Assembly (NCBI GenBank): GCA_003697135.1
Contig: RFGC01000021.1
Coordinates: 1-35,949 of the forward strand
Reading direction: 5' to 3'
DNA from: Acidobacteriota bacterium
Lineage (GTDB): Bacteria > Acidobacteriota > Blastocatellia > Pyrinomonadales > Pyrinomonadaceae
Length of the DNA: 35,949 nucleotides
Shown: one piece after another, positions 28,479-35,949 of the stretch
How positions within the stretch are numbered: the first letter of the stretch is position 1
Layout of the letters: every line of letters starts with the position of its first letter
Made by a program: the position numbers and the translations under genes
Notes under the pieces: model-generated
What the model was told of the DNA's origin: nothing
What the model saw: only the letters and a program-made list of their open reading frames with translations
The model's database searches: none

Positions 28479-28560
28479 AAATCGGCACTTAGGTTTCTTG
28501 TTTTCAAGCGAAACTTGTCTGCATTTTTGGCTGAAATGAGGTAAATTGTCTTTGAAGAAG

Positions 28561-29982
28561 ATGATCAAAGTCTTGCTGATTTATCAAACTTCAGAAGGTT
28601 TGCAAGAACTTTCATTGGATTCAAAGCTAACTTTTGGGCGTGGCAAGCAGGTTGATCTCAGATTTGATGATGAAGGGCTTTCGCGTCTTCATGCAAGTAT
28701 TTACTGCGATGGCGAAAGGGTTTGGATCATTGATGAAAATTCAACAAACGGTACTTTCGTCAATGAGGTTAGGGTGCCCTCGCAAGGAATGGTTTTGCAA
28801 GATGGCGACGAAATAAGAGCAGGTGAGCATACGGAGTTGCAGATACGCATATTTTCGGAAGCAAATGTCGCTCGTGCAGAAGTCGTCGAGCCTGAGCAGT
28901 CATCTCATCAGCTTTTGCCTATTATCGTTGTATCCGCCTCAATTTTTCTTTTTGTGTTCGTTTTGGCTTTTATCATAATCAGTGCGCTTACTTATACCGA
29001 AAAAAAGGACAGCTCCATGCTTGAAAGCTACAAGAGAGAGGCTGATCGAGTTGCTGAATTCCCCGAAGAATTACCGACTAGGGAATTATCAAAAACTCCG
29101 CAAAAGACCGAGAGCACGGATTCGGTAAATACAAAGTCAAACTTTGAAGAGGAGGTTGTAAAAGAGGAAAGATTGATGTCAGTTAGAGGAAGAAAATTCA
29201 TGGAGATGAGCGAAGTTGAAAAGGACGCTTATGTGAAGGAAAAAGCTGAGAAGATTTCTAGAATCATAGGAAATCAAGTTGGGGAACCAATTCCACCAGA
29301 GGCGATTCGTAGCATACGCAATCATCTACAGGGTTATATTAACCGAATACGTTCAACTAGAACCGATAATTGCCGACAAGGCTCATTCACCAAAAGCGAT
29401 ACGATAACTATTTTAGAGCGAGCTAGCCGAAATGCTCCTTTTATAATTCGCTCATTCTATGCTGAAGGGCTTGATCCACAAATAGGAATTTATGTAGCGA
29501 TGATTGAATCCGAACATTGTCCTTGCCTGCAAAGTCCTACGGGACCATTGGGAATGTTTCAATTTGCACGCAAGACTGCTGAAACCTATGGGCTAAAAGT
29601 CAGGCCTGACGCTTCTCCGAGCAATCCTGATGAACGTTGCGATCCAGAAAAAGCAGCTAGAGCCGCCGCAAAGTATTTGAAATATCTGGTTGGCAGGTTC
29701 GGCACTGGTCCGATGAGTTTTCCTTTGGCAATAGCAAGTTACAACAGCGGGCAAGGAGGTTTAAGCCAGAATCTAGAAAAAGCTCTGAAAAAGGCGGCCG
29801 ATCAGGAGCGCTCTTTTTGGACACTTGTTGCGAATCAAGTCGTATTTGAGGGAGCGGTCGGAGAGCAATTCCGAAAAGAAAATGTCAAATATGTCCCGAA
29901 GTTTTTCGCAGCTGCAATTATCGGCGAAAATCCACAAGACTTCGGAATAAACATGGCACCGCTTTCAACCTATACACGATAA
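28561..29982 (+). CDS. FHA-TM-lytic transglycosylase fusion
   Basis: A 473-residue membrane protein joining cytoplasmic phosphopeptide recognition to cell-wall cleavage. The FHA domain (about 22-98) has Gly26-Arg27, SRLHAS (41-46) and NSTNGTFVN (60-68). One membrane helix (about 118-146) is followed by a charged periplasmic linker (about 147-245) and an SLT-like domain (about 275-470). The likely catalytic residue is Glu316 in MIESEHC, followed by SPTGPLGMFQF (325-335) and ASYNSGQGG (392-400). Cysteines 270, 320, 322 and 360 could form disulfides in the periplasm. ATG 28561 opens the FHA domain directly; the TTG at 28546 behind GAGG is an alternative. The C-terminal FFAAAIIGENPQDFGI is shared with the dead paralogue at 32217. 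Confidence 0.88.
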   Translation: MIKVLLIYQTSEGLQELSLDSKLTFGRGKQVDLRFDDEGLSRLHASIYCDGERVWIIDENSTNGTFVNEVRVPSQGMVLQDGDEIRAGEHTELQIRIFSEANVARAEVVEPEQSSHQLLPIIVVSASIFLFVFVLAFIIISALTYTEKKDSSMLESYKREADRVAEFPEELPTRELSKTPQKTESTDSVNTKSNFEEEVVKEERLMSVRGRKFMEMSEVEKDAYVKEKAEKISRIIGNQVGEPIPPEAIRSIRNHLQGYINRIRSTRTDNCRQGSFTKSDTITILERASRNAPFIIRSFYAEGLDPQIGIYVAMIESEHCPCLQSPTGPLGMFQFARKTAETYGLKVRPDASPSNPDERCDPEKAARAAAKYLKYLVGRFGTGPMSFPLAIASYNSGQGGLSQNLEKALKKAADQERSFWTLVANQVVFEGAVGEQFRKENVKYVPKFFAAAIIGENPQDFGINMAPLSTYTR

Positions 29983-30056
29983 AGTGCTTATCTTTTTGAA
30001 GCTGTCTTTTCTTGTCTGTTACTTGCTACCTTGAGAAGAATGCTAAACTATTGAAC

Positions 30057-32186
30057 ATGAAGATCGAGCTTGAAATTCCTCAAAGTCTTTCTCTGGAAAG
30101 AAAGGTTAAAATGCATGAAGCGCGAGAAGCTATAATCGAGCGTCTTGCGCGTGATTTGCCTCAAAGCATTGATCTTGAGCGTTTCTTAAATGTTGTTGTT
30201 TCTGAAATCGGTAAGATGATGGATGTTGATAGGTGCGATCTCATCCAGCTTTCCGAAACAGGCAATCTCCGTATCAGCCATGAATGGCGTAAAGATGATA
30301 AAGTCCCCCAATCAGAAGGGACTATAATACCGATTCAGGCAAAGGATTTAGCCGGTAAATTCGATTTTACGAAGCCCTTTTGTATCAAAAACATTTTGGA
30401 GATCAAAAATCCTTTGGTTACTCTTTTTGCGAGGAATCTGGGAACGAAATCGCTGCTTGTCGTTCCCATTAGCCTGAGCGGCAAAGTAATTGGGCTTTTA
30501 GGACTTCATACAACGGAAGATTTCCGTGATTGGTTAGATGAAGAGATAAATTTTTTGGAATCAATTGCGAGACATTTGGCGATAGGTTATCAATACACAC
30601 GGCTTTATGTTGCCTTACAACGAGAAGCCGAGCGAACAAATGCTCTTCTGGAAATAGCGAATATCTTGAATTCGCATTCTGATTTTGATGAAGTTTCATC
30701 GAAGGTTTTAGAGCGTGCAGTTGAGCTTGTAGGAGCGAGTTATGGGGCGTTGGGAGTCTTAGATAAGTCGGGCAGTAAAATTTCTCTAGCTTCCTTCAAA
30801 TCTGCACCAAATTCAGAGCCAAATGAAGTTCTGAAAATGATAGAGCAGTATAACAAATCCATTGAGCTTGAGCCATTTCCGATTTTGAGGGAGATTCTCA
30901 AAGAAGGTAAAACGTTGAAGCTTTTCGATAGGGATTTGCCTTTGGGCATTAGAGTTATCTTTACTTCAAAACTCATAGGGCGCGCAGCGCTGGTTACCCC
31001 GGTTCGTGTCGGTGGACAAACATTTGGGCTTTTAGGGTTTGTTTGGAGTGATGAAAAGGAAGAATTTGAAAATCACGAAGTCGCTTTGGTAGAGGGGATT
31101 GCCGATCAAATAGGCACGGCGCTTGAACGTGACAGACTCTCGGCAGAAGTCATGCGCTTGAAATCAGAACTTCAAGAGATGTATTCTCCTCAGATCATCG
31201 GTAATTCATCTGCCATAAGAAATGCCATCAAGCTGGCTTTGAAAGTTGCAAGCACGAGAACCACCGTTTTGATTCAAGGCGAATCGGGCACGGGAAAAGA
31301 GTTACTGGCGGACTTGATTCATTACAACTCTGGGCGTGAAGATAAGCCATACGTGAAAATCAACTGCGGTGCGATTCCAGAAGGGCTTATAGAATCAGAG
31401 CTTTTCGGTCATGAAAAAGGTGCTTTCACGGATGCTAAAACAAGACGCATTGGAAAATTTGAAGAAGCAAACGGCGGAACACTGTTTTTAGATGAAATTG
31501 CCGAGCTTCCCATGACAGCTCAAGTAAAACTTTTAAGAGTTTTGCAAGATGGGGAATTCACGCGCATTGGCGGAAACGAAGTTATAAAAACCGACGTTCG
31601 TGTTATAGCGGCGACAAACGTCAATTTGGAAAGGGCAGTTGAGGAAGGTAAATTTCGCGGTGATTTATTCTATCGTTTGTCGGTTTTCCCAATAAACCTT
31701 CCGCCGCTTCGTGAAAGACGCGAGGACATTCCGCTTTTGGTCTTTCATTTTTTGAAAAAATATCAAAGGAAAACTGGGCGTTTCATATCGGGGATTTCAA
31801 AGGCGGCGATGCAGGCACTTCTCAGTTACGAATGGCATGGAAACGTTCGGGAACTGGAAAATGCTATTGAAAGAGCTGTTATCATTGCTGCAGGTGTGAA
31901 CATTGAGCTAGAGGATTTGCCAGAGGCGATTATCAAAAAAGCGCCGAAAACAAACGGCGAAGAAGTTTTAAGATTGATGGACATTGACGAAACTTCGCCT
32001 GTTCTTGCAAATTCCAAGCAAAGTCTTGTGATAGACTTCCCAGCAACGATAGAAGAAATCGAGAAAAGAGCTATCGAAGCTGCACTTGAATACACTCAAG
32101 GAGACAAATCTCGTGCCTCGCGCCTTCTGAAAATCGGACGGAAAACTTTATACAGGAAACTGAGGGAATATGGAATCGGCAAATAG
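30057..32186 (+). CDS. GAF-GAF-AAA+-Fis sigma-54-dependent regulator
   Basis: A 709-residue bacterial enhancer-binding protein. It has two GAF sensor domains (about 38-180 and 190-358), a short linker, a sigma-54-activating AAA+ domain (about 378-605), and a Fis-type helix-turn-helix (about 668-706, ending SRASRLLKIGRKTLYRKLRE). Walker A is GESGTGKE (408-415), Walker B TLFLDE (475-480), and the sensor II region lies around HGNVRELENAIERAV. The sigma-54 contact loop reads GAFTDA (455-460) instead of GAFTGA, a variant also seen in other activators. ATG 30057 is preferred over a TTG 15 codons upstream. It sits between the two FHA-TM genes and is the obvious candidate regulator for sigma-54 promoters nearby, such as the one at 35769. 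Confidence 0.93.
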   Translation: MKIELEIPQSLSLERKVKMHEAREAIIERLARDLPQSIDLERFLNVVVSEIGKMMDVDRCDLIQLSETGNLRISHEWRKDDKVPQSEGTIIPIQAKDLAGKFDFTKPFCIKNILEIKNPLVTLFARNLGTKSLLVVPISLSGKVIGLLGLHTTEDFRDWLDEEINFLESIARHLAIGYQYTRLYVALQREAERTNALLEIANILNSHSDFDEVSSKVLERAVELVGASYGALGVLDKSGSKISLASFKSAPNSEPNEVLKMIEQYNKSIELEPFPILREILKEGKTLKLFDRDLPLGIRVIFTSKLIGRAALVTPVRVGGQTFGLLGFVWSDEKEEFENHEVALVEGIADQIGTALERDRLSAEVMRLKSELQEMYSPQIIGNSSAIRNAIKLALKVASTRTTVLIQGESGTGKELLADLIHYNSGREDKPYVKINCGAIPEGLIESELFGHEKGAFTDAKTRRIGKFEEANGGTLFLDEIAELPMTAQVKLLRVLQDGEFTRIGGNEVIKTDVRVIAATNVNLERAVEEGKFRGDLFYRLSVFPINLPPLRERREDIPLLVFHFLKKYQRKTGRFISGISKAAMQALLSYEWHGNVRELENAIERAVIIAAGVNIELEDLPEAIIKKAPKTNGEEVLRLMDIDETSPVLANSKQSLVIDFPATIEEIEKRAIEAALEYTQGDKSRASRLLKIGRKTLYRKLREYGIGK

Positions 32187-32216
32187 CTGAATTTAAGCAG
32201 GTCTCACTTCTCTTTT

Positions 32217-33554
32217 ATGTCGAAAATGCGTCTCATTTTTAAGGATGAGAACGGTAAGCCAAGAATTGAGTTGGTCGAGAAAGATAAGTTTATAATTGGC
32301 AGACATTCGGAGTGTGATCTTTGCTTGCGTTTGTCGGGACTTTCGCGCAAGCACCTACAAATTGAGCGCTTCGGCACAGTTTTTGTTGTTTCAGATTTAG
32401 GTTCAAGTAACGGAACGACGCTAAACGGTAAAAAACTGGAAGAACCTGCCGCTTTGAAAAATGGTGACGTGCTAAATTGTGCGGGCGTTTTTGAGATGAG
32501 AGTTGAAATCACAGAAGATTTTGCAGACGCTGGAAATGGCAAGGAAAATAACGATGCTACCAAAGAAAATGTTTCGCAAGCTGATTCTGTCGAACAGATT
32601 TCAGAATCTTTTGAAAGTGAAGAAAAGAGAAATGAACAATCCTCTATTTTGAGTGTTTTCGTTTTAGCACCTGTTTTGGGACTTTTTGTCTTAGCGATAG
32701 TCGGAATTTTGTTTATTTTTGCTGGTGAGGAGAAAAAATCGTCCGTTGATGCTTTTGACAGGCTTTCTCGAAAAGAGCGAAATATATTTTCAGATGAGCA
32801 AGCTGAAGGCAAATTTGATAAGGAGTCTGCATCGAGGGATGCTTCAAGTAAAGAAGTTGATCGGGATTTTGAAACTGATGGAAAACGTGAAGTTACTGAT
32901 AGCAACACTGCGGATGTTTTGAATCAGAATGGTTCTGAAATTGACAGAGAAAAGCTGAGGCTTGAGAAAGTAGAGCGTTATGCTATTTTATTCGCACGCC
33001 AGATAGCTTTTCATGAGGCTAACTATGCCTTCACAAAAAGGCAGATCGAGGAAATTTCATCGAGAATAGATGAACTTTCCAGCTCGGCAGCCTTGGCAAA
33101 TAATTTGAAGGCAGTTAGGAAGAATTCCGTTCAACTGGAGCAGATGGCGAAACAGCAAGGTCTGAAACCGCAATTTTTTGCAATGGTCGCAGTGGCACAG
33201 CTTGGTAAGAATCAGGGAGATGTTTTGCAAAAGGCAAAAGAAATTCTGCCGCTGTTAAGCGAACTTAAAATATCGCTTGGTAATGAATTGACCGATGATA
33301 ATCTTTTAATCATTGCGGCTTTCGAGCAGGCATCACGTGGCGGTGATCGTCTTGCGATGCGAAAAACAATAGAAGCCTTGAGCAATCAACCGGGAATTGA
33401 TGCCAGAAAAGCAAGGACTGTGTGGTTCTTGTATGAAAAGGGAAAAATTCTAGATTCGCAGTATGAAGCTGTATTGAGATTTTTGGCAGTCGGAGTGATT
33501 GCGCAAAATCCAAGCGAGTTCGGCGTCAAAGCAGAGCCTGTGATTTTTCAGTAA
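32217..33554 (+). CDS. FHA-TM protein with a catalytically dead transglycosylase-like domain
   Basis: A 445-residue paralogue of the FHA-transglycosylase at 28561. The FHA domain (about 24-98) has Gly28-Arg29, SRKHLQIE (43-50) and GSSNGTTLNG (62-71). The membrane helix is at about 143-169, followed by a long acidic periplasmic linker. The C-terminal domain (about 250-445) aligns with the active paralogue: GLKPQFFAMVAVAQLGK against GLDPQIGIYVAMIESEH, and FLAVGVIAQNPSEFGV against FFAAAIIGENPQDFGI. The catalytic glutamate position is Gln328, and the GMFQF and SYNSGQG motifs are missing, so cleavage is unlikely. A regulatory or decoy role is inferred. It starts 30 bases after the sigma-54 regulator. 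Confidence 0.82.
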   Translation: MSKMRLIFKDENGKPRIELVEKDKFIIGRHSECDLCLRLSGLSRKHLQIERFGTVFVVSDLGSSNGTTLNGKKLEEPAALKNGDVLNCAGVFEMRVEITEDFADAGNGKENNDATKENVSQADSVEQISESFESEEKRNEQSSILSVFVLAPVLGLFVLAIVGILFIFAGEEKKSSVDAFDRLSRKERNIFSDEQAEGKFDKESASRDASSKEVDRDFETDGKREVTDSNTADVLNQNGSEIDREKLRLEKVERYAILFARQIAFHEANYAFTKRQIEEISSRIDELSSSAALANNLKAVRKNSVQLEQMAKQQGLKPQFFAMVAVAQLGKNQGDVLQKAKEILPLLSELKISLGNELTDDNLLIIAAFEQASRGGDRLAMRKTIEALSNQPGIDARKARTVWFLYEKGKILDSQYEAVLRFLAVGVIAQNPSEFGVKAEPVIFQ

Positions 33555-35011: not shown

Positions 35012-35560
35012 ATGGAACTAGAGTTTCACGAGAAAGCATTGATCGTTCGTTTCAATCGTCCGCAAATTCGCAATCCGCTTAGCTTGGACGTTTTAAGGCA
35101 CTTAAACAGGGTTCTTGATGAAGCGCAAGGAACGATTGTTTTCACGGGATCGGAGAAAGTTTTTGCTTCAGGGGCTGATTTGAGAGAGATTTCCAGTTTA
35201 ACTTCATCACAGGCTTTTGAATTTGCAAGGTTAGGGCAGGATTTGATGAAAAAGATTGCATCGAAAAATTGTTTAGCTGCGATAAACGGGCTTTGTTTCG
35301 GTGGTGCTTTTGATCTGGTTCTGAATTGCAAGAAAAGAATTGCATCGCCTGATGCTAAGTTTTGTCACCCAGGAGTCACTTTAGGAATCATAACTGGTTG
35401 GAGCGGAACACAAATTCTGCCAAAAGTTGTCGGAAAAAAGAAGGCATTGGAAATCTTCTTAACAGCGAAAGTGATTGATGCTTGCGAAGCATTGGCAATC
35501 GGGCTTGTTGACGAAATTAAACCATCACCTTTGAACTTTCTTTTAGAAAATCTTCCTTGA
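35012..35560 (+). CDS. Short crotonase-fold (enoyl-CoA hydratase/isomerase-like) protein
   Basis: A 182-residue member of the enoyl-CoA hydratase/isomerase superfamily. The acyl-CoA-binding FASGADLREI (about 50-59) and oxyanion-hole segment AINGLCFGGAFDLVLNC (about 90-106) are present. Both hydratase glutamates are replaced: the CEL glutamate is Asp in AFDL, and the PE glutamate is Gly in CHPGVTLG. The protein ends just after the EALAIGLVDEI segment, lacking the roughly 60-residue C-terminal helices that usually cap the active site and build trimers. It is therefore probably not a hydratase; another crotonase reaction or a degenerating gene is possible. No fatty-acid oxidation genes are adjacent. 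Confidence 0.85.
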   Translation: MELEFHEKALIVRFNRPQIRNPLSLDVLRHLNRVLDEAQGTIVFTGSEKVFASGADLREISSLTSSQAFEFARLGQDLMKKIASKNCLAAINGLCFGGAFDLVLNCKKRIASPDAKFCHPGVTLGIITGWSGTQILPKVVGKKKALEIFLTAKVIDACEALAIGLVDEIKPSPLNFLLENLP

Positions 35561-35676
35561 AGTTAACTAACTGATTTGCGTAGTTTCCTTCTGCAGCTGA
35601 GGAATCACAAGTCACAACTCGGAGCTTTTACTGTATGACCAAAATAAAAACTGGATCGGTCAAACTGACTTAATGT

Positions 35677-35693
35677 TCATTCATTTTGAATGA
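35677..35693. promoter_or_regulatory. 17-base dyad, possible enhancer-binding-protein site
   Basis: TCATTCA-TTT-TGAATGA is a perfect 7-bp inverted repeat. Its centre is about 110 bases upstream of the start point predicted for the sigma-54 promoter at 35769-35784, a usual distance for an activator binding site. Confidence 0.4.
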
Positions 35694-35768
35694 TAGTGAA
35701 AAAGGAATTACATCTTTTGTGAGCTTCTAAATCATTGTTTTTATTGAAATAAAAGTTGTAGCTTTCTG

Positions 35769-35784
35769 TGGCATAGCTTTTGCT
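35769..35784 (+). promoter_or_regulatory. Sigma-54 (-24/-12) promoter
   Basis: TGGCATAGCTTTTGCT matches the consensus TGGCACG-N4-TTGCW at all but two bases. The invariant GG (35770-35771) and GC (35782-35783) have the required 10 bases between them. Transcription would start near 35795, about 26 bases before the ATG of the secreted protein. Confidence 0.7.
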
Positions 35785-35820
35785 TCTTTCAGGAGATGAA
35801 TCAGGAGGGAAAAGGTAGCA

Positions 35821-35949
35821 ATGAGGATCGTGAATTTGGTAATAGCTTGCATAACGCTTTTTGCATTTTCCACGCAAGCAATCTTTGCAGGTGGAACGCC
35901 AAATCAGCAATGGTTGCCTCAAAACGCATTGAATAGAGCTAATGGAGAT
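35821..35949 (+). CDS. Secreted protein, N-terminal part only
   Basis: The first 43 codons of a gene that runs off the right edge of the window. It starts with a classical signal peptide (MRIVNLVIACITLFAFSTQA, then IFA) and a likely cleavage before GGTPNQQW. The start is ATG 35821, with AAAAGG and AGGAGGG upstream. It is not a type IV pilin: there is no prepilin G-F-T-L-x-E motif. The sigma-54 promoter at 35769 should drive it. Nothing more can be said about its function. Confidence 0.7.
   Translation, partial: MRIVNLVIACITLFAFSTQAIFAGGTPNQQWLPQNALNRANGD

Follow-up and report, generated by a model that had tools for sequence, protein, structure and literature searches.

The sigma-54 promoter at the end of the window, by which we mean the whole 35,949-nucleotide stretch analysed here, and the perfect dyad upstream of it are probably run by an NtrC-type response regulator that is encoded on another contig, C14, next to a kinase with a LOV domain. 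This assignment builds on the recurrence of the same dyad before a second -24/-12 promoter at the C14 locus, on the preservation of that arrangement in related genomes and on the recognition helices of the candidate activators. The window corresponds to the entire contig C44 of a 2.79-Mb genome assembled in 47 contigs.

A sigma-54 promoter ahead of an exported protein

The element TGGCATAGCTTTTGCT is the only exact match to TGGCAY-N5-TTGCW on either strand of the window (Table 1). It is near consensus, with GG and GC at the exact -24/-12 spacing that a first-pass annotation of this DNA had reported, and no sigma-70-like promoter was found in 35400-35949. Genome-wide, the pattern gives 15 exact matches compared to 5 when it is read backwards. 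The first-pass annotation would have abandoned the promoter if the genome lacked rpoN; one rpoN match is present (Sigma54_DBD, E 2e-59), and the genome encodes sigma-54 activators in some number. As judged from these features, the element is very probably a genuine sigma-54 promoter. Here and below, the predicted transcription start is placed 12 bp past the -24/-12 element, and elements are scored with ad hoc weights of our own on a scale whose maximum is 14.1.

Table 1. Features of the window discussed in the text
Feature	Position	Strand	Basis
GAF-GAF-AAA-Fis sigma-54 activator, rival candidate	30012..32186	+	Pfam; different recognition helix
Enoyl-CoA hydratase/isomerase-family gene, upstream context	35012..35560	+	Pfam ECH_1
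Candidate upstream activator site TCATTCA-TTT-TGAATGA	35677..35693	.	Identical 17-mer precedes the C14 -24/-12 promoter
-24/-12 (sigma-54) promoter element TGGCAT-N5-TTGCT	35769..35784	+	Sole exact TGGCAY-N5-TTGCW in the window
Start of exported protein, 43 residues, cut by contig end	35821..35949	+	Translation; similarity to a sister-species protein

The ATG at 35821 lies 36 bp past the promoter element and opens a frame with a signal-peptide-like N-terminus (by eye), in agreement with the earlier description of an exported protein cut off by the window edge; the gene is cut at 35949, the end of the contig. Sister species G001 has a 572-aa protein with a CarboxypepD_reg domain, to which residues 11-43 are 48% identical. 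A second copy of the gene begins at the end of contig C45, which shares its last 99 bases with C44 (window 35850-35949), and contigs C20 and C33 share their first 99 bases, which belong to a 3' end with homology to the G001 protein's C-terminus. The middle of the gene was not among the genome matches, and the simplest reading is that there are two near-identical genes of ~570 codons whose middles were collapsed in the assembly. Contig breaks inside near-identical secreted-protein genes were seen at C44, C45, C20, C33, C13 and C18, with 93 bases shared by the start of C13, the end of C18 and the end of C20.

The 250 bp ahead of the C45 copy and of the G001 gene contain neither a -24/-12 element nor the dyad core, their best -24/-12 scores being 10.1 and 9.7, respectively (of 14.1), so the promoter is specific to the window copy. 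Conservation therefore gives the window promoter no direct support, and the regulon could have captured it recently.

The dyad recurs before a sigma-54 promoter on C14

The dyad has perfect 7-bp arms, and its core, TTCATTTTGAA (35680-35690), lies 78 bp before the promoter element, inside the ~60-150 bp range for upstream activator sites. Its centre (35685) is 136 bp before the ATG and ~110 bp before the expected start site, just where the first-pass annotation had put a perfect 17-base dyad. Taken alone, such a dyad is ordinary and constitutes weak evidence, since 23% of simulated 260-bp regions of matched dinucleotide make-up contain one or more perfect dyads with 7-bp arms (loop 0-10) and the window itself contains 38; what is out of the ordinary is its recurrence. 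Both arms are matched exactly at three places in the genome: the window; C18:2089, where the centre differs and the site falls within an open reading frame; and C14:286804, which agrees with the window dyad over all 17 bases and is its sole other copy in the genome.

The C14 copy answers the earlier suggestion that the same dyad be sought near other -24/-12 promoters. It shares bases with the 3' end of the gene (C14:286807-288276) for an NtrC-type response regulator, which has REC, AAA+ and Fis-type HTH domains by Pfam and a GAFTGA motif in its sequence. Past the dyad come a second core, ATTCAAAATGAAT, and a strong -24/-12 element, TGGCACGTTGATTGCC, at gaps of 98 and 57 bp from the two cores. 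There are three copies of the core ATTCA-A3/T3-TGAAT in the genome, one in the window and two at C14, which make up 3 of the 7 ATTCANNNTGAAT sites. All three of these AAA/TTT-centred sites have a downstream -24/-12-like element scoring 13.6-14.1 (maximum 14.1), compared to a best score of 10.1 on the same ad hoc scale for the remaining four; the search started from the window site, whose match is therefore in part a product of selection. We also considered the dyad as a widely repeated operator and rejected this, as with up to 2 mismatches the dyad gave 13 sites and the reversed pattern 9, no clear excess.

The C14 promoter is followed by an operon encoding a 120-aa protein and a REC-DUF4388 regulator, with DUF4388 presumably the PATAN domain. 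As a candidate roadblock/LC7 (MglB-like) protein, the 120-aa protein has LAMTOR5 as its sole family match (E 0.0045, below cut-off), and an 8-sequence profile retrieved nothing from the PDB at E up to 1. Relatives of this protein at E 1e-15 or better occur in 9 of 60 genomes, and no NtrC-type regulator was seen beside the relative in the stretch examined at G033, G030 and G026.

The regulator-site-promoter order is kept in related genomes

The order regulator, TTCAAAATGAA-type site, -24/-12 element and target operon is kept in the sister species G001, the one other genome of the genus compared, where GTTCATTTTGAAC lies 56 bp before TGGCACAAGACTTGCT, and in the same-family genome G042, where GTTCAAAATGAAC and the degenerate TTCAAAATAAA lie 108 and 76 bp before TGGCACAGAGTTTGTA and the regulator gene is split in the draft assembly. 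Two genomes of another family, G038 and G054, have the same C14-type order with one base of the site changed (TTCAAAATGAC, 88 bp before TGGCACAGAGCTTGC). In G034, from the family of G038 and G054, a -24/-12-like element precedes the REC-DUF4388 gene, and the stretch examined contains neither a TTCA-A3/T3-TGAA-type site nor a regulator helix of the SLSTL(K/R)RK type.

Alignment of the five upstream regions was uninformative because their spacings differ. The seven core-to-promoter gaps (56, 57, 76, 78, 88, 98 and 108) lie on one helical face, with values modulo 10.5 between 2.5 and 4.5 (permutation p 0.0004, or 0.008 using one value per locus, against random gaps from 50-110 and with the G001 C16 site, gap 75 and ATT centre, left out). 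At this G001 site (C16:36602; L139 3580-3985), a similar promoter, TGGCATAGTTTTTGCT, stands behind another NtrC-type regulator; no clear gene was found on that strand in the ~300 bp past it, and it possibly drives a sigma-54-dependent small RNA.

Across six genomes there are 17 RTTCAWWWTGAAY sites, 10 of them with an AAA or TTT centre. An element scoring at least 12 lies within 20-140 bp on one side of 5 of these 10 (3/3 in the genome under study, 1/2 in G001, 1/4 in G042 and 0/1 in G034), and the sites without a promoter are outside the regulator locus (1/2 in G001, 3/4 in G042, 1/1 in G034). None of the 5 mixed-centre sites examined, from a total of 7, has such an element. The background per 76-bp range on one strand is ~0.015 for a score of 12 and 0.002 for a score of 13, the tested range being wider and on both sides. 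When TTCANNNTGAA combined with TGGC-N7-TTGC was searched in 60 genomes, 28 of them yielded 41 places in all, against 4 for the reversed pattern. Four of the 41 are in the genus itself: C14, C44, and C17 and C16 of G001. Among the other 37 places, 28 were inspected; an AAA or TTT centre occurs at none of these 28, and the genes that follow vary, being pilin-like or exported in some cases. We treat the places outside the genus as mostly chance, of which the reversed control may give too low an estimate. G042, G038 and G054 are missed by this pattern because the -12 region or the dyad is one base off.

The choice of activator and alternative readings

Regulators at C14-type loci, on C14 and in the relatives, have the helix SLSTL(K/R)RK in common. 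A search of 25 genomes returned 30 activator loci, with the helix pattern recognised in 16, and in the DNA examined around them a TTCA-WWW-TGAA site was present at 2 of the 30, the two with SLSTLKRK. On these grounds we assign the window promoter to the C14 regulator and not to the activator encoded near it. The first-pass annotation had instead joined promoter, dyad and this neighbour into a local circuit, with the neighbour binding the dyad and driving the promoter. The gene on which that proposal was built is indeed there, intact-looking and 3.5 kb upstream of the dyad, and it speaks for such a circuit. The circuit itself is not supported: ~five genes separate the activator from the promoter, the recognition helices differ (KIGRKTLYRKLREYG in the window activator, where the helix reads IGRKTLYRKLREYG, versus GISLSTLKRKIKLYG in the C14 regulator), the other copies of the dyad adjoin the unlinked C14 regulator, and it is around this different, C14-type activator that the order of regulator, site and promoter is kept in relatives. 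We regard control by the neighbour as quite unlikely. Two FHA-domain proteins, of which one also has a lytic transglycosylase domain, are encoded on either side of the window activator (window 28546-33554). At two further loci (L004 and L007; G000 C1:82621 and C12:207832), -24/-12 promoters before exported proteins share CCATTTTTTTGG, in one and two copies, which is probably the site of another activator.

The promoter might also be a true sigma-54 promoter run by some other activator, the match of its dyad to C14 a coincidence, given that activators matching at E 1e-60 or better number at least 11 in this genome and the helix was examined in seven (the C14 regulator, the window activator and five more). 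In these seven, the SLSTLKRK-type helix belongs to the C14 regulator only. The chance of a random site falling 45-110 bp upstream of one of 15-60 promoters is ~0.0004-0.0014, C14 has two tandem cores, and the helical phase agrees, which makes a coincidence unlikely. Another function for the dyad would be as terminator hairpin of the upstream gene or as repressor operator for that gene, of the enoyl-CoA hydratase family, since it lies 116 bp past the gene and its TGAATGA/TCATTCA halves presumably resemble fatty-acid repressor operators. The hairpin was rejected for its ordinary energy (z -0.79, with 45 of 200 shuffles as good) and after a search of 35400-35949, which found no terminator-like site; an operator would stand behind the gene it controls, not before it, and the dyad recurs beside the C14 sigma-54 promoter. 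This is the kind of reading to which we would give very little weight.

A LOV kinase precedes the C14 regulator

The kinase encoded before the C14 regulator has an N-terminal LOV domain with the motif GRNCRFLQG (DCRFLQG in G001), and the best solved matches of the domain are 9vf7 and the YtvA-FixL hybrid 4gcz. The motif cysteine, C85, and R86, Q89, N117, N127 and Q148 are identical in the LOV kinases of both species of the genus, and we take the Arg, Gln, Asn, Asn and Gln positions to be flavin contacts. Pfam detects HATPase_c (E 2e-21) and HisKA (E 8e-7, over its cut-off) in the C14 kinase; HisKA in the G001 kinase falls below its cut-off, as do the matches of the C14 kinase to the NCBIfam blue-light kinase models. 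These residues and domains point to the C14 kinase as a probable blue-light sensor, and its adjacency to the regulator leads us to infer that the two are partners. A quinol-type nitric oxide reductase-like gene (by eye; L029 677-2971) and the LOV-kinase operon are convergent.

No LOV motif is present in the kinases of the G042, G038 and G054 loci, so the C14-type enhancer system is probably older than its light input. A scan for a GAFTGA-type motif in the DNA examined near LOV-kinase-like loci of other genomes, which covered the best 80 of 428 relatives with some stretches cut by contig ends, found none.

A proposed light-responsive circuit and its relation to known systems

We propose that the adjacent LOV kinase would sense light and act as the partner of the C14 regulator, which, once phosphorylated, would bind the TTCA-A3/T3-TGAA dyad and loop to the sigma-54 polymerase on the same DNA face. 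The regulator would thereby switch on both its adjoining operon, for the 120-aa protein and the REC-DUF4388 regulator, and the exported protein of the window, which may be made in response to light. The promoter, the sites with their recurrence, their conservation and spacing at the C14-type locus, and the domain make-up can be read from the sequence, and from there we infer the binding of the regulator, its partnership with the kinase, the light sensing and the sign of the response. A more extended scheme, which we put forward tentatively and hold to be somewhat doubtful, is a blue-light sigma-54 regulon that co-induces the REC-DUF4388 module and an unlinked exported protein, with the capture of one gene copy leaving a light-conditional and an unconditional copy. 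If true, sequence alone would have revealed one sigma-54 circuit with its enhancer code, its activator, its probable signal and two targets, in a poorly studied group (the organism being acidobacterium-like), and a LOV blue-light kinase would be linked to an NtrC-type activator.

The pairing of a LOV kinase with an NtrC-type activator was not found in the literature as covered, in part, by titles and abstract openings. Term searches of the accessible portions of PMC12316311 and PMC12826048 gave nothing relevant on a LOV kinase with a sigma-54 activator, and in PMC3162934 such searches did not turn up Acidobacteriota, LOV or blue light.

A close parallel is BphP-AlgB of Pseudomonas aeruginosa, in which, according to PMC6932827, a photoreceptor histidine kinase feeds an NtrC-subfamily regulator and phosphotransfer was shown. 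Both systems combine a photoreceptor histidine kinase with an NtrC-subfamily regulator carrying the GAFTGA motif. BphP-AlgB uses a phytochrome (far-red) and a regulator family unlinked by sequence, whereas the C14 system has a LOV domain, an adjacent regulator, a defined candidate enhancer dyad and -24/-12 targets, and phosphotransfer in it is predicted. The UirS-UirR-LsiR system of Synechocystis, where a light-sensing kinase and a regulator switch on a receiver-PATAN regulator gene, resembles the C14 locus in that the neighbouring operon of the latter encodes a REC-DUF4388 regulator; it differs in having another photoreceptor, and sigma-54 was not found mentioned in the accessible portion of its description (PMC5812497). 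More generally, sigma-54 has been portrayed as a controller of the bacterial exterior (PMC3162934), a theme to which the present genome conforms in that 6 of its 15 exact -24/-12 matches precede signal-peptide-like starts (by eye).
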